DNA from: Odontocerum albicorne
Taxonomy: Eukaryota; Arthropoda; Insecta; Trichoptera; Odontoceridae
DNA: 64,000 nucleotides
Direction of reading: 5' to 3'
NCBI GenBank assembly: GCA_949825065.1
Contig: OX463838.1
Span: 5,248,251 to 5,312,250, forward strand
In this document: positions 4,363 to 62,838 of the stretch, piece after piece
Layout: every line of letters begins with the position of its first letter
Position numbering within the stretch: the first letter of the stretch is position 1
Notes under the pieces: generated by a model
Databases searched by the model: none
What the model saw: only the letters and a program-made list of their open reading frames with translations
Told to the model about the DNA's origin: nothing
Made by a program: the position numbers and the translations under genes

Positions 4363-4529
4363 TGTTACAAAGATCGTTAATTAAAAAAAGAACCCTTGAA
4401 AAAACGGATGGAAATGAAAATCGAAACCACAATTCCTAGACTGGAGAAAGTCTTAGTTACAGGACCACGAAGGTGGGCATTTACATTTACATATCACGCT
4501 TATTATAACATCACTTTGGAAAAATGTTT

Positions 4530-5400
4530 ATTTTGACAAAAGGTGGCAAATAATAGCGTTTATAATAAATATGAAATCAATATATGATTATATTTTGACA
4601 AAAGGTGGCAAATTATATGGTGTATAATAAATATTAAATCAATATATGATTATATTTTGACAAAATGTGGCAAATTATAATGTCTATAATAAATATTAAA
4701 TCAAGATATGATTATATTTTGACAAAAAGTGGCGAATTATAGCGTCTATAAAAAATATGAAATCAATATATGATTATATTTTGACAAAAGGTAGCAAATT
4801 ATAGCGTCTATAATAAATATTAAATCAATATATGATTATATTTTGACAAAAGGTGGCAAATTATAGCGTCTATAATATATATGAAATCAATATATGATTA
4901 TATTTTGACAAAAGGTGGCCAATTATAGCGTCTATAATAAATATGAAATCAATATATGATTATATTTTGACAAAAAGTGGCAAATTATAGCGTCTATAAT
5001 GAATATGAAATTAATATATGATTATATTTAGACAAAAAGTGGCAAATTATAGCGTCTATAAAAAATATGAAATCAATATATGATTATATTTTGACAAAAG
5101 GTAGCAAATTATAGCGTCTATAATAAATATTAAATCAATGTATGATTATATTTTGACAAAAGGTGGCCAATTATAGCGTCTATAATATATATGAAATCAA
5201 TATATGATTATATTTTGACAAAAGGTGGCCAATTATAGCGTCTATAAAAAATATGAAATCAATATATGATTATATTTTGACAAAAGGTGGCAAATTATAG
5301 CATCTATAATAAATATTAAATCAATAGATGATTATATTTTGACAAAAGGTGGCAAATAATAGCGTATATTAGAAATATGAAATCAATATATGATTATAAT
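4530..5400 (+). repeat. 62-bp tandem satellite, about 14 units
   Basis: The unit begins ttttgacaaaaggtggcaaa and ends with atgaaatcaatatatgatta. Fourteen units follow one another with single-base changes and a few small indels. Every unit repeats the core ggtggcaaattatagcgtc. There are no unrelated spacers between units, so it is not CRISPR-like. The array is unrelated to the other satellites of the window. Confidence 0.95.
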
Positions 5401-6409
5401 ATGAAATCAATAGACAATTTATGTAACGCTGTTTACTGCTAGAAAACATATTATTTTTAAGTGTGCGCTAATTTGGGATTCAAACTCACAAAAAATTACG
5501 TAAAAATTAACGATAAAAAAAGATATATGTATTAATTCAAGTACAGTGGTCAAGTACGTCAAACGCTTGTCTTCCTAACTGAGGATTTTAAATTCAATTT
5601 CTACTTGAATCTAAATATTTAAAAGGGTCCCAGGCTATTATTAACACAAATTCTTTCAACATAATTCACGCAAGTTGAAAGAATGTTTTTCATGCAAATT
5701 GAAACATTCTAAATTTGCAATAAAAGTGCAGAACAAAAACTTACATTACAATCCCTGCTGACTTTTATTGATGCATATTGAAAAAATAAGTCCACTATAA
5801 CTGAGTACAAATAAGCTTTTTTATTTTATTTTTGATTTGATAACCGTGAATTCTCGTTCACAAAAATCTCAACAAAAAAGTACGTTTATAGCTTATCAAT
5901 ACATTTTTCCTGTACAACCTTCAACAAAAATATCGGAATTCTTTTCCATGTCGCAAAATAAATTCCTTTTCCTTGGGAATAAAATTGCAATAAAACAGGG
6001 GATCGTAAACTTTTCCATCACAGCGTCAGCATCAGACGTTTTTTTGTGTTGAAAAAAATAACGCACATTTAATATCACCGATGTTACTGTATTCTCCCAC
6101 TCCTAACGGGTAAAATAATCTCTGATAAACTCTACCACCTCTGCTGAATTCAAACCTGACCTCTCCTGACCCATCCATTCCACCTGTTCATGAGGCAACC
6201 TACTGGTCATTCACTTTCAGGGTTGGTCATGAACATTATACTCGTATTATGTAACGAATCCTTATTGTTGGTATTTAAACAAAATACCTGTGGTCATTGC
6301 AGTTGAGATCTAAATGTTTTTTTTATTTCAAGGTATTTCGGGTTAAGAGTGTTAAAACTATAAAATAAAAAGTAAAGGAATGACCACTTTTATGTAATGG
6401 GTATCTGAA
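5401..6409. other. AT-rich sequence with a faint tRNA-like trace
   Basis: Around 5545-5605 the text gtggtcaagtacgtcaaacg followed by attcaatttctac resembles a much-decayed tRNA-derived SINE head (A box, then B box), too degraded to call. The frames at 5837-6078 have no recognisable motif. Confidence 0.35.
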
Positions 6410-8057: not shown

Positions 8058-8579
8058 AAGGGGTTTTCAAATTGAGCGGTTTTTTTATTCTTGGATAAAA
8101 CACAGATGACGTCGCGAACTTGCCTAAGTCTTGTGACATTTGAAAAGTGTAATGTATGACATTTATAAAAATGGAATCGTATACAGTACACCACGTTCAA
8201 ATTAAGAATTATTTGATGTATTGTAATCTCCGGAAACGGTGATGTTAATTGGCCACCAAAATCATGTGGCCTGATTCCGTTGGACTATTTTCTCTGGGGT
8301 TACGTGAAAAACCAGGTCTATAAGAATGACCCCCAATCAATTCCTCATTGGTGAGTTAGAACCGCAATTATTTAAAATGTCATCTAAAATTTTGACAAAA
8401 GAGTGGACATCTGTGGAGCTGCAAGATGTGAACGTTCGGCGGATATTGTTTTTGTGCTTAAATGCCATACATTAAATTTAAATGACCAATAAATTTGTTT
8501 TGGAATCAAAGTTAATTGTGTGTTTTATTCAATAATTAAAAAAAAATAGAATTAAAAAAACCGCTTAATTTGAAATAAA
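8058..8579 (+). mobile_element. internally deleted Tc1/mariner element (family M, copy 1)
   Basis: The left end aaggggttttcaaattgagc and the right end (ccgcttaatttgaaa) are versions of an inverted terminus better kept at 62302-62838. A short 5' stretch begins with an ATG at 8170 (Met-Glu-Ser-Tyr-like in other copies) and is joined directly to the C-terminal transposase region. That region reads WPPKSCGLIPLDYFLWGY in the frame near 8250-8310, then a decayed IGELEPQL block. Such C-termini belong to IS630/Tc1/mariner transposases of the kind annotated with an N-terminal DUF4817 helix-turn-helix. The catalytic core is deleted. It is non-autonomous. Confidence 0.85.
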
Positions 8580-11990: not shown

Positions 11991-12797
11991 TATTCTAATT
12001 TGTTTTATCAAACACCGTTTATTTCAATTTTATTCTTTTTTTCAACGGTATAACCTTACCGGTTTCAAGGCTTTCACCTCCTTGTGGGTGTTTCAAGGCT
12101 CACATCACAAGTTGGTCTGCCCTAATGATGAGGTGAAAGTCTTGAAACCGGTAGGGTTATACCGTTGATAAAGTTAAATAAACAGTGTTTGATAAAACAA
12201 ATTACAAAGGATTTAAACCTCCACAATGTTAATGGATGGATAAACAAGGCAACTTCTAAAATAGAGTTACCCAACAACAATCCAGTTGGATAGGCCATAA
12301 CATCAAGCACCCAGGCCTGCTCCTTACCATCGTCGAGGGAATGATTGAGGGCAATGTCCCAGATATAGCTACATGACCGGGTGATCCGGGATGTGCGCTG
12401 TGGCAGCTACCAGGAGATGAAGAGACTGGTGGATGACAGAGATGAGTGGAGGGATCGAGTGCTTGGTGCAGACCAATCCTAGGATTGTAACCTAGATATA
12501 GCTACATGGACCGGGTGATCCGGGATGTGCACTGTGGCAGCTACCAGGATATGAAGAGACTGGCGGATGACAGAGATGAGTGGAGGGATCGAGTGCTTGG
12601 TGCAGACCAATCCTAGGATTGTAACCTAGATATAGCTACATGGACCGGGTGATCCGGGATGTGCGCTGTGGCAGCTACCAGGAGATGAAAAGACTGGTGG
12701 ATGACAGAGATGAGTGGAGGGATCGAGTGCTTGGTGCAAACCAATCCTAGGATTGTAACACAGAAAAAAAATGTTAATGCCTTAACTTTAAATAAAC
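11991..12797 (+). mobile_element. foldback element B1 (Penelope-like architecture), with nested LINE
   Basis: A perfect 12-bp duplication, tattttatcaga, flanks the element at 11979-11990 and 12798-12809. Inverted arms run inward from about 12000 and 12215 (tttatcaaacaccgtttatt against its complement). A one-sided extension, cctccacaatgttaatg continued by ccttaactttaaataaac at 12779-12797, lies only on the right. That extension is split by a LINE insertion (12235-12770). Without it the element is about 262 bp, close to copy B2. The right arm keeps a hammerhead-like core: CUAAUGA, an extra U, a GAGGU/GUCUU stem with GAAA loop, GAAACCGGUA. Family assignment is inference from architecture. Confidence 0.75.
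12235..12770 (+). mobile_element. RTE-like LINE 3' end with triplicated 134-bp segment
   Basis: The insert is flanked by ATGTTAATG at 12226-12234 and 12771-12779 and ends in AGAAAAAAA, so it is a 5'-truncated retrotransposition into foldback B1. The plus-strand frame reads SWIGHNIKHPGLLLTIVEGM, then DRVIRDVRCGSYQEMKRLV and DDRDEWRDRVLGADQS followed by a stop. This is the standard C-terminus of an RTE-type LINE polyprotein. The last 133-134 bp occur three times in tandem (12361-12493, 12494-12627, 12628-12760), each copy ending with the same stop. The triplication is confined to the LINE and leaves the flanking duplication intact. Confidence 0.85.
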
Positions 12798-13647: not shown

Positions 13648-14642
13648 AGGGTCTTTCAAATTGAGCGGTTTTGTAAATTTTTGGATAAAACACAGATGGC
13701 GTTGCGAACTTTCCTGGGTCTTGTGACATTTGAGAAGTGTAATGTATGACATTTATAAAAATGGGGTCGTATACAATACAACAACGCGTTCAAATTGTTG
13801 AATTATTTTATGTATTGTAATCTCCGGAAACGGTGATGTTAATTGGCCACCAAGATCATGTGATCTGACACCGTTGGACTATTTTCTCTGGGATTATGTA
13901 AAAAGCCAGATCTATAATATATATTTTGTTGTTTTAATTTTTGTTGTTTTATATTTGTATTTCTGTATATTTTTGTTTTTAATTTTTATGATTGTGTGCG
14001 GTATATTATGGGATGAACATTTTTGGTCTTTCTGGAGTGATGATGCGTGAGGAATTTGATTTCGCATGATGTTTCCATTTGTAATTGAGTGTCACTGTTT
14101 GTCAGGTTGATGAGAATGTGCAACGGGGGTTTGTTTCTGTGTAATCAAAAATCGGAAAGAAGTATCGATTAATTTTTTTATGCCAAATATCCTCAGTGAG
14201 ATACATGAAAAGTCCTAGTTTACTGGGGATACGACAAATGAAAGGCAACCAACCCAGATCCATTAAAATTGTATGTCCAAATTACCTGTTGTTTTTTCAC
14301 AAATTATGTATATTTCTTGTCATGTGTAATAATAAATAAATAAATAAAAATGACCCCTTATCAATCCCTGAGTTGAAAGATGAAATTATTCGCATTATTG
14401 GTGAGTTAGAACCGCAATTATGCCAAAATGTCATCAAAATTTTTGACCAAAGAGTGGACATCAGTGAAGCTGCAAGAGGTGGACATTTGACGAATATTGT
14501 TTTTTTGTATTTTAATGTAATACATTATACTTCAATTAACAATAAAACGTTTTTTGAAATCAAAGTGAATTGTGTGTTTTATTCAAGAAATAAAAAAATA
14601 TAATAGAATTTAAAAAACCACTTAATTTGAAACATTTTTATA
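13648..14642 (+). mobile_element. Tc1/mariner family M copy 2, interrupted
   Basis: It starts with aagggtctttcaaattgagc and ends in a decayed inverted copy (accacttaatttgaaac). An ATG at 13762 opens the start of the transposase in other copies of the family (MESYT, QQRVQIVEL). The sequence is then joined to the C-terminal region: SCDLTPLDYFLWDY near 13858-13900 and, after an interruption, IIRIIGELEPQLCQN and EAARGGHLTNIVF (14373-14510). Catalytic sequence between N- and C-termini is missing. A LINE tail (13919-14345) splits the coding part. Confidence 0.85.
13919..14345 (+). mobile_element. LINE-type retroposon tail (family K) inside mariner copy 2
   Basis: The mariner sequence breaks after agatctataa and resumes with aaaatgacccc at 14346. 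The intervening DNA ends in four taaa-type repeats, typical of LINE tails. Its last 180 bases (gtttactggggatacgac, then ggcaaccaacccagatcc) also occur on the minus strand at 44222-44405. No open frame is recognisable. A target duplication is not clear. Confidence 0.7.
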
Positions 14643-20040: not shown

Positions 20041-20410
20041 AACCTTTCCCTTCCTATCCTAAAAAAAATCCGCGCGTTCCGGTGCTGTGTATTCAATACA
20101 CATGTAAAAAAAGCGATTTAAACTCGGCAAAATAAGAATATTCATAGCCAATGGCTTAAATTTATTAAATTTGAAGTCAAAAGTGATAATAATTGAAATC
20201 TAATTGCTGGAAACATGAAAAAAATATCGGTTGACGTTCACAAAACGAGCGAAGAAACCACCTCAAATGGATTCTCTAGAGTTACTGAGATGGGACTTTG
20301 TCTCGGATTGTTATACCTCGAAGGAAGAAACACAATTGCGAACTGATATTCTATTTCTTGCGTTCCCATATACCTAAGTAGAGTGAGAATGAGACGTGAA
20401 TAGTGTCTTG
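20041..20410 (+). mobile_element. piggyBac-like MITE, subfamily II, truncated
   Basis: It begins CCTTTCCCTTCCTATCC and matches the 48985 copy through gtattcaatacacatgt and catcggttgacgttcac-like blocks up to about 20410. The left flank reads TTGA instead of TTAA. The right half is missing and is replaced by the 50-bp satellite. Confidence 0.75.
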
Positions 20411-20757
20411 TGTGTCTTGACCTGAGAATGTGTCTTGACCTCGATAAAATTTTTAAATTTGCATTATCAAGCTCAGAATGTAAGACACATTAAATTTAAA
20501 AAACCTCGTTAAATTTTTTAAATTTGCATTATCAAGCTCAGAATGTGTCTTGACCTCGTTAAATTTTTAAAATTTGCATTATCAAGCTCAGAATGTGTCT
20601 TGACCTTGTTAAATTTTTTAAATTTGCATTATCAAGCTCAGAATGTGTCTTGACCTCGTTAAATTTTTTAAATTTGCATTTTCAAGCTCAGAATGTGTCT
20701 TGACCTCGTTAATTTTTTTAAATTTGCATTATCAAGCTCAGAATGTGTCTTGACAAC
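20411..20757 (+). repeat. 50-bp tandem repeat, about 7 units
   Basis: The unit gaatgtgtcttgacctcgtt, aaattttttaaatttgcatt, atcaagctca starts at 20541, 20591, 20641, 20691 and 20741, with more diverged units upstream from 20411. The last unit runs straight into LINE coding sequence, so the array may have grown at the LINE junction. Confidence 0.92.
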
Positions 20758-20759
20758 GT

Positions 20760-21290
20760 TAAAAACTACTTGAGCGTAAGAAGAGATGTGCGTCTCCTGG
20801 TATACGTTGTCAAACTAGTTCGAGGAGTTGTGAGCTGTCCAGCATTACTACAAAGATTAGCGTTAAATGTTCCTAACAATTACACTAGACTGCGCCGGCA
20901 AGAACTGTTCTCAATAACATACGCAAGAACGGGTCTTCCAGCCGCTATGCCTGTTGGAAGGGCCTTAACTCTTCTGAACGGGACTGCTTCGGATATTGAC
21001 ATATTTCATATCACATTACCAAAAGCAAAAGTAAATTTTCTTCTTAGATTGAGCGCGTTAGAAAGCACTCATCAACATACCTAAATGACTGTGAATATAT
21101 GTGTATAATATGTTTGTGTGTATATACTCGTTTGTATGCATTATTTTTTATTTTATATAATTTTTTAACTTTTTTTTTTTTCCTCTATGTAATTTTTCTT
21201 ATTTTTAATGTCTTATATTTTCAAAGTAATTGAGCTAAGCCTGTTTTGAAAAAATAAATAAATAAATAAAAAATAAATAAATTAACTAAC
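20760..21290 (+). mobile_element. LINE ORF2 C-terminus and 3' UTR (family V-like)
   Basis: The plus-strand frame ending at 21084 reads VRRDVRLLVYVVKLVRG, SCPALLQRLALNVPNNYTR, LFSITYARTG and GTASDIDIF before its end. This pattern (short helix, P-rich NVPxxxTR, then a small folded tail with DIF) is the C-terminus of R1/Jockey-type LINE proteins. The protein at 56204-56680 is a relative. The 3' UTR ends in a (aaat) run at 21255-21285. Confidence 0.75.
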
Positions 21291-21961
21291 TTTTATAAAT
21301 TCTAAATTCGGATCACTCACAGGTAAAAGCACCGGCCTTATAAGAGTGTTTTTTTTTTAATTTCTAGCGTTTTAAAACTTTTTGGGTCATTGAATTTTCC
21401 TTTCTTCAAGGTAACTGTTTCATCTAAAAATATTGAACATCCTTTTATAAGAAATAACTTGGGGTTTTATTCCATTATTTTCTAGAAATTTGGAGTTATC
21501 ACTTTCGGTCCGTTGCTTATCACATGCTCCTAATTACCAACCTTTACCCTCACTGTTCAACCCTTAAAGCATAATGATAATTGGGTCTCAAGAAACGTCC
21601 CCTGTAGATTTTGCAGGGATCAAATAAAGGTCATAAAGGTTATCTAAAGGTGCAAAAATATCTTTTATCCCAATTATTCTTAGAATTTTTTTGGTAGAAA
21701 AAAAAGAGGGAATGAAACAAAACTAATTCGACAAAACTCAGGGAAAGGGTACAAAGTTGGATCATTTCAAAATTAATTTTCAAGCTATTAGCTTAATAAA
21801 GAAAAAGGTGTGAAATGTTTCAACCCATCCAGCAAGGTAATTTTTATAAAGGTATTTTTATTTTTTATAAAAATAAATTAAATATTTATAAAGGTGTGAT
21901 TGAGTTGTTGCGTTTTTTGTTTTATCAATCTTTTCATCAGATGAAACAAGTGAATTTGAAA
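21291..21961. other. AT-rich sequence without a recognised feature
   Basis: No repeat, frame or structure was recognised between the LINE tail and the mariner copy. Confidence 0.5.
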
Positions 21962-22220
21962 TAAAGGGTTTTTCAAATTGAGCGGTTTTTTAAATTCAAA
22001 TTTTTATATTCTTGAATAAAACACACAAATTGCTTTGATTTCAAAAAAATATTTTACTGGTTATTGAAGTATAATACTCGTATATGACATTTAAACACAA
22101 AAAATAATTTCTTGAATCTTCGAAAAGACTATAGTTTCATTTTGTGGTGCCATTTTTACATAAAAGAAAAAATAAGTAAAATAAAAAAACTTATTTTATA
22201 TTTTTGTGTTCACCACAGGT

Positions 22221-22280
22221 TAATTTTAGGTTCATAACTAGTTTCGAAGACCACCGTCTTCTTCGTCAGGTGAAGATAAA
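22221..22280 (-). ncRNA. hammerhead-like motif, left arm of foldback A1
   Basis: On the minus strand: AUUUAUCUUCAC, CUGACGA, one extra A, stem II GAAGAC/GUCUUC with GGUG loop, GAAACUAGUU, then AUGAACC. Stem II and the core are intact. Stem I has a C-A mismatch at the first pair (A instead of G after the predicted cleavage site) and a weaker outer helix, so this copy is probably impaired. Confidence 0.6.
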
Positions 22281-22740
22281 TTAAGTTGTTAAAATATATT
22301 ATGTACAAGTATAAATAATATAATATAGGAGGCATGAGATAGGGGGAGGGAAGTGGGTAGAGATGGGATACAATGGTGAATGAGGCGGAGAAAAAAATAT
22401 GTGAAAGTGAATGTGAATCTTTAAGGCAGGGGAGGATTTTAAATTGGAAACATATTAAGCAGAGGACTATTATGAAAATTGGTTTGGTTATTAATGATAT
22501 TTAAATGATATTTAAGTTGACATATCATTAATTACCAAACCAATTTTCATAAAAGCCCTCTGCTTAATATGTTTCCAATTTAAAATCCTCCCCTGTCTTA
22601 AAGATTCCCATTCACTTTCACATGTTTTTTTCCCCGCCCCATTCACCACTGTATCACATCTCTCCCCACTTCACTACTCCTACCTTATCTCTTTTATATT
22701 ATATTATTTACACTTGTACATAACATATTTTAACAACTTA

Positions 22741-22803
22741 GTTTATCTTCACCTGACGAAGAAGACGGTGGTCTTCGAAACTAGTTGTGAACTTAAAATA
22801 AAC
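22741..22803 (+). ncRNA. type I hammerhead ribozyme motif, right arm of foldback A1
   Basis: Stem I outer GUUUAU (22741-22746) pairs with AUAAAC (22798-22803); inner UUCAC (22748-22752) pairs with GUGAA (22787-22791). The core CUGACGA is 22753-22759, followed by an extra A at 22760. Stem II is GAAGAC (22761-22766) with GUCUUC (22771-22776) around a GGUG loop. GAAA is 22777-22780. Stem III is the self-complementary ACUAGU (22780-22785), giving a GUU cleavage triplet ending at 22786. One base between A9 and 10.1 is extra; a natural viroid hammerhead (chrysanthemum chlorotic mottle viroid) is known to tolerate this. The two-base intramolecular stem III loop implies dimeric action, as described for Penelope-like elements. 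Confidence 0.72.
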
Positions 22804-23317
22804 CTGTAGTGAACACAAAAATATAAAATAAGTATTTTATTTATTTTTCCTTTTATAAAAAAAACAATATCCGCCAAATGTCCTCTTCTTGAAGCTCCAC
22901 AGATGTCCACTCTTTTGTCAAAATTTTCGATGACATTTTGACATAATTGCTGTTCTAACTCCCCAATAACGCGAATAATTTCGTCCTTTATTTTAGGAAT
23001 TGATTGGGGGTCATTTTTATAAACCAGGTTTTTCACGTAATTTCAGAGAAAATAGTCCAACGGTGTCAGATCATTGATCTTGGTGGCCAATTAACATCAC
23101 CGTTTCCGGAGATTACAATACATAAAATAATTTTCAATTTGAACGCGTTGTCGTATTGTACACGACTCCATTTTTATAAATGTTACATTACATTTCTCAA
23201 ATGTTATATTATATTACATTTCTCAAATATAACAATACAAGACCCAGGCAAGTTCGCGACGCCATCTGTGTTTTATCCAAGAATTTAAATAAACCGTTCA
23301 ATTCGAAAGACCCTTTA

Positions 23318-23730
23318 GGTTCGAAGATTTTCTATTATACTCGTATAGTAAAACCAATTTTTTAAAGTTGTCACTGTGTTCGTTAAACTATGCCCAAAAT
23401 TGTTAGGGCTTTGCAGTCTTTATACGCAGACCGATGTCTAAAACATTACCGAATATTCAGTAGTTTTTTTGTTTAAATCTTGGAAGAAAAAAAAAATAAA
23501 ACGCTTTCGAAATGTTAACCACAATTTAAATACACTCAACACGACGGCGGCTCTGAAAAATAATTTAAACTTACTTAGTCAATTTGAAAATGCAGCCCTT
23601 GAGATTATTTTTCGCTTTTTGAAATTAGTTCAGAAAAGAATTTAGTTAGAAGTATGAAATTAACTGTCTGCAATATGAAATTTACGTAGAAAAATAGGAA
23701 AAAGTTAGAAATTTTATTTTTTGTATAATT
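23318..23730. other. AT-rich sequence without a recognised feature
   Basis: Unique-looking sequence between two repeats. It contains TACTCGTA at 23338-23345 just outside the mariner terminus. No recognisable frame. Confidence 0.5.
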
Positions 23731-23852
23731 TAAATTGCTTATTTCTTGAATCTTCGAAAAGACTATAGTTTCACTTTGTGGTGCCATTTTTTACATAAAA
23801 GGAAAAATAAGTAAAATAAAGAACTTATTTTATATTTTTGTGTTCACCACAT

Positions 23853-23915
23853 GTTTATTATAGGTTCACAACTAGTTTCGAAAACCACCGCCTTCGTCGT
23901 CAGGTGAACATAAAT
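23853..23915 (-). ncRNA. type I hammerhead ribozyme motif, left arm of foldback A2
   Basis: On the minus strand stem I inner GUUCAC pairs with GUGAAC over six bases and outer UUUAU with AUAAA. The core CUGACGA is followed by an extra C. Stem II is GAAGGC/GUUUUC with two G-U wobbles around a GGUG loop. GAAACUAGUU is unchanged. Two stem II changes keep pairing by G-U, which is consistent with past selection for the fold. Confidence 0.7.
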
Positions 23916-24539
23916 TAAGTTGTTAAAATATGTTTTGTACAAGTGCAAATAATATAATATAAGAGTGATGAGGTAGGGGGAGAGAAGTGGGGAGAGATGT
24001 GATACAATGGGGAATGGGGCGGGGAAAAAAATATGTGAAAGTGAATGTGAATCTTTAAGACAGAGAGGGGATTTTAAATTGGAAACATATTAAGCAGAGG
24101 GCTATTATGAAAATTGGTTTGGTTATTAATGACATTTAAACTTAATTTTATAGATTTTTTAATCTCGAGAATTTCTAATTGAAAACAAGCACCTAATTGA
24201 AAACAACCATTTGTTCGATATAAATCGTGGTTTGAGGATTCTACATATAAACCGAGGTAGATTGCATCTTAACAATTTGGAAATTCTCGAGTTTTAAAAA
24301 ATCTATAAAATTAAGTTTAAATATCATAAATTACCAAACCAATTTTCATAATATCCCTCTGCTTAATATGTTTCCAATTTAAAATCCCCACCTGTCTTAA
24401 AGATTCACATTCACTTTCACATATTTTTTCCCTCGCTCCATTCACCGTTGTATCACATATCTTCCCGCTTTTCTCCCCCTACCTCATATCCCTTATATTA
24501 TTTCATTTACACTTGTACAGAATATATTTCAACAACTAA

Positions 24540-24602
24540 GTTTATCTTCACCTGACGATGAAAACGGTGGTCTTCGAAACTAGTTGTGAACCTAAAATAA
24601 AC
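24540..24602 (+). ncRNA. type I hammerhead ribozyme motif, right arm of foldback A2
   Basis: The same layout as the A1 right arm: GUUUAU/AUAAAC and UUCAC/GUGAA for stem I, CUGACGA at 24552-24558, an extra U at 24559, stem II GAAAAC/GUCUUC with one A-C mismatch, GGUG loop, GAAA at 24576-24579 and CUAGUU. The extra base after A9 is A, C, U and A in the four arms, so it is a variable unpaired position. Confidence 0.68.
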
Positions 24603-24672
24603 CTGTGGTGAACACAAAAATATAAAATAAGTTTTTATTTAACTTATTTTTCCTTTTATGTAAATTGCTTAT

Positions 24673-25183
24673 ACCCACCAGCACGATGAAATAGAAGAAG
24701 ATTTATACTAGAGGCAGTGGTTGAGTACTGTTTTGGCATTATATAATTTTAAGATGACTCTTAACAAACAACAACTAACTATTCAATCTACAGTGCACTT
24801 TAAAAGTCGGTCATCTTAAGACTTAGCTTAAAGTCAATTGTTTAATATTTTAAAACTAAGCACTTGGCTTATATCTTGTTCATGATGTACAACCAAGCAG
24901 ACAATAAAACAACCTTTCAAATTTGCTAGGCTTTAAGCGATTATCAATTCATTTTCATCATCGTAAACCAAGTCTTAGATTCACATATAACTAAGTAATT
25001 ATTTTACTTATTGCTACTACAATATTTAAACTGTGAATTTAATTAGAATCTACAAATAATAATAGCCGTCATCAAGCCCATATATCAGTACTGAGAGAAT
25101 ACTTTAATCAAAAAGGTCTTTTTTGAAAATACCTGAGATTCGAAGATTGCACTCGTAGATAGATTACCGAATGCAGCCCAGTC
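24673..25183. other. AT-rich sequence without a recognised feature
   Basis: No repeat or frame of note. It separates foldback A2 from the 84-bp satellite. Confidence 0.5.
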
Positions 25184-25327
25184 TTGTCCGCGTCTTCTCA
25201 ATTTCTTTTGCATTTTGATCCTCCTACCCAAGGACTACGCCATCTTCCCCTCGACTATGATATGTGCTTTTTGTTAGTTAAGTGTTCCATTAAGTTTTTT
25301 ACTAACCCACAAAGCCACGGATGTCAA

Positions 25328-26075
25328 CAGGTTTACATATGCATAGGATACTTTGATAATTACAAAGCTGATGAAAATATGTTTTCAACCTCTTCGAAGT
25401 ACAATTCACCACAGGTTTACATATGCATGGGATACTTTGATAATTACAAAGCTGATGAAAATCTGTTTCCAACCTCTTCGAAGTACAATTCACCACAGGT
25501 TTACATATGCATCGGATACTTTGATAATTACAAAGCTGATGAAAATCAGTTTTCAACCTCTTTTAAGTATAATTCACCACAGGTTTACATATGCGTAGGA
25601 TACTTTGATAATTACAAAGCTGATGAAAATCTGTTTTCAACCTCTTTGAAGTACAATTCACCCCAGGTTTACATATGCATGGGATACTTTGATATTTACA
25701 AAGCTGATGAAAATCTGTTTTCAACCTCTTCGAAGTACAATTCACCACAGGTTTACATATGCATCGGATACTTTGATAATTACAAAGCTGATGAAAATCT
25801 GTTTTCAACCTCTTCGAAGTACAATTCACCACAGGTTTACATATGCATGGGATACTTTGATAATTACAAAGCTGATGAAAATCTGTTTTCAACCTCTTCG
25901 AAGTACAATTCACCACAGGTTTACATATGCATGGGATACTTTGATAATTTCAAATCAGTTTTCAACCTTTTTGAAGTACAATTCACTACAGGTTTACATA
26001 TGCATAGGATACTTTGATAATTACAAAGCTGATGAAAATAAGTTTTCAACCTCTTTAAAGTACAATTTACCCCAG
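25328..26075 (+). repeat. 84-bp tandem satellite, nine units
   Basis: The unit caggtttacatatgcatagg, atactttgataattacaaag, ctgatgaaaatctgttttca, acctcttcgaagtacaattcacca starts at 25328 and every 84 bases to 25916; the eighth unit has an internal deletion and the ninth ends near 26072. Since 84 is a multiple of three, a 277-codon plus-strand frame (25184-26017) and several others on both strands stay open. The plus frame is eight copies of a 28-residue unit starting QVYICIGYFDNYKADEN. Synonymous and replacement changes look equally frequent, so translation is doubtful. It is listed as a satellite, with a coding role not excluded. Confidence 0.92.
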
Positions 26076-50627: not shown

Positions 50628-50981
50628 ACGACCTCCATGGCCTGGTGGTTGCGGGTTCGATCCCCGCTGGAACCCAGATTTTTTTAAATAGGATTTTTTT
50701 TTTTTTAACCTGGCGAGTTTATTGCCATGTGGCAAATCTCTTCCAACCAACCAGAAATATGTTTTTATATGCCCTGAGTGTTAACCAGACTGGAATCCTA
50801 TTTAAAAAAAATTGGGTTCCAGCGGGGATCGAACCCGCAACTTCTGGATCGGCAGACGAGTGTCTTACCACCAGGCCATGGAGGATTCCAGTCTGGTTAA
50901 CACTAAGGGTTTATAAAAACATCTTTCTGGTTGGTTGGAAGAGATTGCCACATGGTAATACACACGCCAGGTTAAAAAAAT
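50628..50981. mobile_element. cluster of three SINE pieces in inverted arrangement
   Basis: Three parts abut. A plus-strand head (50628-50692) keeps ggttgcgggttcgatccccg but has lost the anticodon region. A near-full minus-strand SINE runs from poly-T (50696-50707) to accaggccatggagg at 50886. A plus-strand body and tail (50884-50981: ccagtctggttaacactaag, then ctggttggttggaagagatt) follows. The last two form an imperfect palindrome with arms of about 95 bases around the tRNA-like head. Frames such as 50645-51037 are SINE translations, not genes. Confidence 0.85.
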
Positions 50982-62301: not shown

Positions 62302-62838
62302 AGGGTCTTTCAAATTGAGAGTTTTTTTTAATTCTTGGATTAAACACAGATGGCGTCACGACCTTGACTGGATCTTGTGACATTTCAGAAGTGTAACGTA
62401 TGACATTTATAAAAATGGAGTCGTATACAACAACAATAACGCTTTCAAATTGAGAATTATTTTATGTATTGTAATCTCCGGAAACGGTGATGTTAATTAG
62501 CCACTAAAATCATGTGATCTGACACCGTTCGACTATTTTATTTGTGGTTACGTGAAAAGTCAGGTCTATAAAAATGACCCTAAATCAATTCCTGAGCTCG
62601 AGGACGAAATTATTTGCGTTATTGGTGAGTTAGAACCGCAATTATGCCAAAATGTCATCGAAAATTTTGACAAAAGAATGGAGATCTGTAGAGCTGCAAG
62701 AGGTGGACATTTGACGGATTTTTTTTTGTTTAAATATCATACATTATACTTCAATGACCAATAAAAAGTGTTTGAAATCAAAGTAACTTGTGTGTTTTAT
62801 TCAAGAATTTAAAAAAATCGCTCAATTTGAAAGACCCT
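62302..62838 (+). mobile_element. Tc1/mariner family M, best-preserved copy
   Basis: Termini are agggtctttcaaattgag and, inverted, agggtctttcaaattgagc, each next to TA. The 537-bp element carries an N-terminal codon block from the ATG at 62416 (MESYTTT-type) and the C-terminal transposase: SCDLTPFDYFICGYVKSQVY, KNDPKSIPELEDEIICVIGE, LEPQLCQNVIENFDKRMEIC and RAARGGHLTDF. The domain between these, with all catalytic acids, is absent in every copy, so the deletion is ancestral to this non-autonomous family. The protein type is the IS630/Tc1/mariner group annotated with DUF4817. Confidence 0.9.

Follow-up and report, generated by a model that had tools for sequence, protein, structure and literature searches.

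Putative type I hammerhead motifs in the pLTR of head-to-head Penelope-like element insertions in Odontocerum albicorne

Hammerheads in the pLTRs of Penelope-like elements (PLEs), inverted pLTRs and tails have all been published previously. Such hammerheads were described by Cervera and de la Pena (2014) and Lunse et al. (2017), as cited in later papers. In the Anolis PLE the hammerhead is located at the pLTR-ORF junction, and the tail is the stretch between two adjacent internal start sites; both strands are nicked and extended, the start site shows no strand difference in vitro, and the hammerhead needs protein while insertion in vitro proceeds without it (PMC11167929). Penelope of Adineta vaga and Drosophila virilis has inverted pLTRs, one of which may carry a tail, as stated in the relevant part of PMC3846280. 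The sections of the reviews used in this study assign no known role to PLE hammerheads. A comparable minimal architecture is seen in the type I hammerheads of salamanders and newts, which have a stem III of one pair with a palindromic tetraloop and work better as dimers; these differ in forming direct tandem repeats with circular RNA expression, and no link to PLEs is stated in the part of the source used (PMC7229834).

The DNA analysed here, referred to as the window, is the whole stretch of 64,000 nucleotides from Odontocerum albicorne. It contains two separate insertions, A (22109-22858, recognized by its ends, duplication and empty sites) and B (23743-24660, recognized by its exact duplication), each with a tailed arm on the left and an untailed arm on the right. 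Their anatomy and positions can be read directly from the sequence. The inverted arms are 338 and 287 nt long and 89% and 84% complementary, respectively. The target duplication of A is 10 bp with one mismatch (AAAAAATAAT at 22099-22108 and AAAAAACAAT at 22859-22868), and that of B is 12 bp and exact (TAAATTGCTTAT at both 23731-23742 and 24661-24672). Element A was inserted in an older repeat, and empty sites were found elsewhere in the window. No Pol III B box was detected on either strand of A or B, while the A box gave three loose matches in A and none in B.

All four arms carry a motif with the parts of a type I hammerhead, on the forward strand in the right arms (A, 22741-22803; B, 24540-24602) and on the reverse strand in the left arms (A, 22217-22279; B, 23853-23915). 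The preliminary description listed all catalytic elements in order at 22741-22803 (+), and each part was found there. In the 5' to 3' direction, the stem I strands GUUUAU and UUCAC are followed by CUGACGA, an extra A, GAAGAC-GGUG-GUCUUC, GAA, ACUAGU, U17 at 22786, GUGAA and AUAAAC. Cleavage is predicted after 22786 in this arm, and after 22236, 23870 and 24585 in the left arm of A, the left arm of B and the right arm of B, respectively. The pattern CTGANGA-N17-GAAACTAGT was matched with zero mismatches by all four arms, at 22753-22785 (+) and 22237-22269 (-) in A and at 24552-24584 (+) and 23871-23903 (-) in B. Likewise, CUGANGA, GAA, A15.1-U16.1 and H17 are present throughout, and the 13 core columns are identical in the four arms, in agreement with the earlier statement of an unchanged core. 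The inner pairs of stems I and II, stem I being the open end, are all intact in two of the four arms; the stem I closing pair is gone in the left arm of A (C.A), and the right arm of B has one A.C in stem II. It had also been proposed that stem II varies partly through G-U wobbles. This is true of two G.U pairs in the left arm of B; as an argument for the fold it is nevertheless weak, since no pair is altered on both sides among the four arms, and their share of paired cells does not exceed that of shuffles.

U17 is uncommon among natural hammerheads. In the plus hammerhead of chrysanthemum chlorotic mottle viroid an extra A is located between A9 and stem II. One inserted base was observed at this place in each of the four arms (A in both arms of A, C in the left and U in the right arm of B), so that none of them has the usual hammerhead form, which lacks an insertion here. 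The extra base noted earlier is therefore real, and the second PLE family considered below also has one. The extra A of the viroid is documented in the relevant part of PMC3705267; the extra base is shared, with no sign of a relationship between viroid and window arms.

The genome from which the window comes was searched and comprises 1.287 Gb in 1,241 contigs. The 63-mer gave 985 first-look candidates; identity was 97-100% in each of the 40 that were scored, and 30 loci were fetched. The pattern of this hammerhead had 1,846 genomic matches at up to two mismatches, and the reversed pattern had none. In the 20 extended loci the arm is either single and truncated at its inner side or double, head to head with variable junctions, and some copies continue into coding sequence. 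Broken reverse transcriptase (RT) and/or GIY-YIG pieces stand directly before the arm in two loci (L223 and L216). A third, L232, has the order RT frame, GIY-YIG, arm with hammerhead and tail, with an inverted untailed arm at the opposite end. Its RT frame (RVT_1 37.6 bits, cut-off 29.6) has 372 codons, the longest open frame seen in this first family, and its GIY-YIG piece scores 21.4 bits, which like the other first-family value of 20.5 bits is slightly below the cut-off of 22.6. No intact ORF was seen in the first family, in which four of the 18 RT matches at >=72% identity are stop-free over a 109-aa stretch.

Because genomic copies run from the RT and GIY-YIG piece straight into the arm, the arm was assigned as a pLTR, and by its protein parts and layout the source element is a PLE. 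Element B retains HLIENNHLFDINRGLRILHINRGRL of an L232-type protein as a remnant of the GIY-YIG region (24190-24264, +), and the same stretch is present in L216, L223 and L232. The inner end of its right arm (24250-24378, +) matches the closing portion of the PLE coding sequence: L232 aligns here over 2326-2735, its open frame extends as far as 2454, and the inner 129 bp of the arm coincide with the end of that frame. The 'foldback family' of the preliminary description is thus better described as head-to-head PLE insertions, and it is very probable that these are truncated copies whose motif is a type I hammerhead in the pLTR, just 5' of the ORF start.

A second PLE family was revealed when the RT piece from L223 was used as query. 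This gave 1,796 candidates, and among the 150 places scored, 18 were at >=72% identity and 132 at 53-57%. Eleven of the latter lie in open frames of 824-825 codons; some of these units follow one another in tandem at intervals of about 2.6 kb, and others form head-to-head pairs. In one locus of this family, L233, GIY-YIG scores 24.0 bits (cut-off 22.6) and RVT_1 25.9 bits, below its cut-off of 29.6. GIY-YIG is followed there by CUGAAGA-U-GAGGU-GAAA-GCCUU-GAA-ACCGGU-A-GGG (motif example at 689-720 of L233), and the ATG of the long ORF lies 56 nt past the predicted cut. Nine second-family motifs were found in a scan of 352 kb (the window and loci of its own genome), with U as the extra base in eight and G in one. 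The pattern of this hammerhead had 42,507 matches genome-wide at up to two mismatches (reversed, none), L233 being the one whose surroundings were read. A head-to-head arrangement with a spacing of about 60 bp is seen for some of them (C1:3032253 and 3032315).

Eight of the nine second-family motifs were aligned with the four window arms and L232; the motif left out (L226 7440, -) has a stem I of one pair. In this alignment 88.3% of the cells are paired, with both-sided change in four pairs and 17 cells and a covariation of 0.312 against 0.172. None of 500 shuffles reached the number of cells or the score, while 249 reached the pair count and 463 the number of pair types. The compensated changes occur in each of the three helices and reach the centre of the stem III palindrome. 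They represent few independent events, since they lie mainly between the two families; the outer two stem I pairs are mostly unpaired in the second family. The hammerhead reading is settled because the arm is a PLE pLTR, a place where hammerheads are known, and because a second PLE family has a differently spelled, compensated hammerhead in the same place. The type I hammerhead fold of the preliminary description was therefore right, though mainly on grounds other than its own, namely the PLE homology and these helices, both of which are properties of the sequences compared.

An Rfam covariance search gave zero hammerhead matches above threshold in the window, in a 3.3-kb piece or in any of the four arms, which taken literally is one of the outcomes that the preliminary description had named as refuting. 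No hammerhead was returned at the gathering score for the whole window or at E <= 10 for 21901-25200 (3.3 kb). When 76-nt pieces were used, RF00163 matched full-length in three arms with 17.8, 17.0 and 11.6 bits (right arm of A, right arm of B and left arm of A) against a gathering cut-off of 34, and gave no match in the left arm of B. This cut-off is not decisive for the window arms, because a hammerhead with a long stem III in a viral contig (L020, 206-271, -), which looks complete by eye, likewise falls short, scoring 26.5 and 25.4 bits where the cut-offs are 56.3 and 48.5. Rfam hammerhead cut-offs can evidently miss motifs of this kind. Matches to MIR774 and MIR8001 were rejected as the element's own hairpin apex, far under the cut-off.

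The chance expectation was estimated from simulated windows of the same dinucleotide make-up, read on both strands (66,000 windows, or 4.2 Gb). A loose descriptor with stems I and II of >=4 bp gave 193 matches in 9,710 windows (0.02 per window), and stem II >=6 with stem I >=5 gave 13 in 8,875 (0.0015 per window). Only two matches were found in 66,000 windows when both stems were >=5 and the pairs G10.1-C11.1 and C15.2-G16.2 were present, and none when these canonical closing pairs were combined with stem II >=6 and a loop <=8. In a control with real DNA from viral contigs, both stems were >=4 in none of the 120 matches listed for CTGANGA..GAAACTAGT (at least 120 exist), compared with two of the four window arms; the geometry of this test does not count the long-stem-III hammerhead of L020, which is among the 120. 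Two patterns gave at least 120 and 60 matches in the viral contigs, and one exact pattern gave none.

The motif showed no excess conservation, with 40 of 46 columns invariant against 233 of 298 in the rest of the arm, and 75 of 299 arm windows were conserved as well as the motif. The fold energies of the isolated 63-mers were also unremarkable (z of -2.00, -0.86, -1.60 and +0.34), and in the best predicted fold of the isolated right arm of A part of the core pairs with stem III. Transcripts of the whole elements are predicted to fold at -463 and -462 kcal/mol for A and -532 and -529 kcal/mol for B, and in these four folds 42 to 46 of the 46 motif bases are paired more than 100 nt away. The lack of covariation within the family, the plain conservation, the modest folds and the buried motif fit dead copies of a mobile element. 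Because the predicted whole-element fold buries the motif, the hammerhead in the window copies is most likely a passenger. At 22718-22735, just 5' of stem I, AACAACUUAGUUU is almost complementary to GAAACUAGUUGU (22777-22790). In the fold predicted for the arm alone, this pairing is a competitor of the hammerhead, which could reflect a switch or chance.

The ends were examined in 30 places, comprising 28 from the 30 fetched loci (two of which are one element and one the window) together with A and B; 10 further scored 63-mer matches lie outside this set. Two outer ends were found in 18 places, and in every one of them one end is tailed and the other is not. Target duplications were found in 14 of these 18, measuring 12 bp in eight and ranging from 10 to 18 bp. 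The other 12 places are without two outer ends (L202 and L222 look like duplicates); the other end of L217, L202 and L222 consists of a bare tail. Exactly one tail is also seen in L232, which is outside the 18, and some copies are a truncated single arm, in one case with a duplication of 11 bp. In the hammerhead sense, the untailed arm terminates at CCTTTTATG, and the tailed arm is 48 to about 50 nt longer, through ATGGCACC... (MAPQSETIVFSKIQE), the ATG of which is likely the ORF start. The tail of B (23743-23787, -; ATG GCA CCA ...) would accordingly hold the likely first codons of the PLE ORF, and in this arm the first end, the ATG and the second end lie 76, 82 and 127 nt past the predicted cut. 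The left end had been considered as a second, degenerate hammerhead; the similarity was weak (equalled by 11 and 79 of 500 shuffles), and it is now read as the PLE tail. The outer ends at which the two arms begin are fixed, and the internal junction at which they meet varies. The strict presence of a single tail in two-ended copies suggests that each such insertion uses both start sites, one per end.

Compared with known PLE pLTR hammerheads, those described here are alike in their position at the pLTR-ORF junction, the minimal stem III, the pair of fixed start sites enclosing a tail and the ORF nearby downstream, but differ in the extra base between A9 and stem II, in U17 and in having a separate ATG 82 nt past the cut. 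The ORF of the Anolis PLE instead begins at stem II, and the cut lies 26 bp inside it (PMC11167929). Head-to-head pLTRs, one tail, short duplications and an ORF start in or near the pLTR are shared with Penelope of Adineta vaga and Drosophila virilis, whereas exactly one tail in 18 of 18 copies and duplications of mostly 12 bp, rather than 8-10 bp, set the present elements apart from what the relevant part of PMC3846280 describes. Three features were not found in the literature searched, which did not extend to the primary papers on PLE hammerheads: the additional base in the core of two PLE hammerheads, the number of copies of the second, and a one-tail pattern of this strictness.

The extra base also bears on the templates of the two arms. 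It differs between arms in eight of the 15 two-armed elements readable on both sides (B, L182, L184, L190, L198, L206, L209 and L210) and agrees in A, L183, L191/L192, L196, L200, L203 and L208. One arm of most of the 15 was chosen by a query carrying A; the 14 arms not so chosen have T in eight, A in five and C in one. Among the first 100 exact matches listed, the base is A in 87, T in 12 and G in one, and the 10 head-to-head pairs visible there all agree (nine A/A and one T/T), two of these pairs being also among the 15 elements. Different templates for the two arms are possible in some insertions and are not the rule, because all 10 visible pairs share the base. The idea that the extra base is the U of a conserved AUG was rejected: T occurs in eight of the 14 non-query arms, but in just 12 of the first 100 exact matches listed, and is thus not the main state in the first family.

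We infer cleavage, dimerisation and two cDNAs. The PLE enzyme would nick each strand of an AT-rich target, the nicks being about 12 bp apart; two cDNAs would be started, one at either internal start site, and joined head to head. RNAs spanning the pLTR-ORF junction would be cut after U17 by the hammerhead, probably acting as a dimer and/or helped by the PLE protein; cleavage as a dimer is favoured because stem III is a bare self-complementary hexamer.

The palindrome invites two related proposals. The fold may be kept for a non-cutting use, stem III pairing two PLE RNAs so that the dimer would be the template for two cDNAs. Stem III is indeed a perfect palindrome in both families (ACUAGU and ACCGGU) with a compensated change at its centre, arms differ in the extra base in eight of 15 elements, and the Anolis hammerhead requires protein and is dispensable for insertion in vitro. 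We nevertheless consider this use unlikely, given that the 10 head-to-head pairs visible among the first 100 exact matches listed agree and that the complete catalytic core would need a separate reason. The same agreement lowers to a quite improbable level the combination of two concerted target-primed cDNAs, one per start site so that each head-to-head copy has a single tail, with a stem III palindrome holding two RNA templates in at least some insertions; taken by itself, the one-tail component has a much higher probability than this whole. If true, palindrome-held templates would give PLE hammerheads a role that has so far been lacking.

Other origins fit the arms far less well than truncated head-to-head PLE insertions. 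The very short palindromic stem III resembles that of the salamander repeats, the AT-rich unit has a few hundred bp and the target duplications exceed 4 bp (in relation to the part of PMC7229834 used), all of which could point to a non-autonomous animal retrozyme, that is, small non-coding type I hammerhead repeats moving as circular RNA. Such an origin is very improbable, as the arms stand head to head in 18 of 30 places with no direct arm tandem noted in the 20 extended loci, and the unit adjoins PLE coding sequence. The arms (338 and 287 nt; 89% and 84% complementary) and duplications of 10 and 12 bp would also suit a foldback DNA transposon that is bounded by long terminal inverted repeats and carries the motif incidentally. 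This explanation was dropped because the ends proved unequal, all 18 two-ended copies having the 48-nt tail at just one of their ends; truncated single-arm copies (one with an 11-bp duplication) and variable internal junctions also oppose it, leaving it scarcely credible. It is finally conceivable, though highly doubtful, that a PLE pLTR merely resembles a hammerhead by chance: the sub-threshold Rfam scores, the 0.02 loose matches per simulated window and the lack of covariation within the family would agree with this, while the absence of any match of equal quality in 66,000 simulated windows, the compensated helices at the same position in a second PLE family and the fact that hammerheads are an established pLTR feature, in the portions of the literature drawn on, all argue for a true hammerhead.

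This genome offers a large natural record: the hammerheads of its two PLE families differ in spelling, and their patterns match at 1,846 and 42,507 places. With insertion ends apparently corresponding to one RT start site each, the order of PLE insertion events becomes testable, as does the question of whether the ribozyme or its palindrome participates in insertion.

Several other features of the window were noted. The older repeat family giving the empty site of A (22000-22108 with 22859-23073) also occurs near 8300-8550, 14344-14600 and 62515-62817, and its frames look transposase-like by eye. Tandem repeats are located at 4405-5510 (62 bp), 25244-26047 (84 bp), 20388-20813 (50 bp) and 12375-12776 (134 bp). 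A tRNA-like sequence at 50818-50882 (-), scoring 32.5 bits against an Rfam cut-off of 29, is possibly the head of a tRNA-derived SINE.
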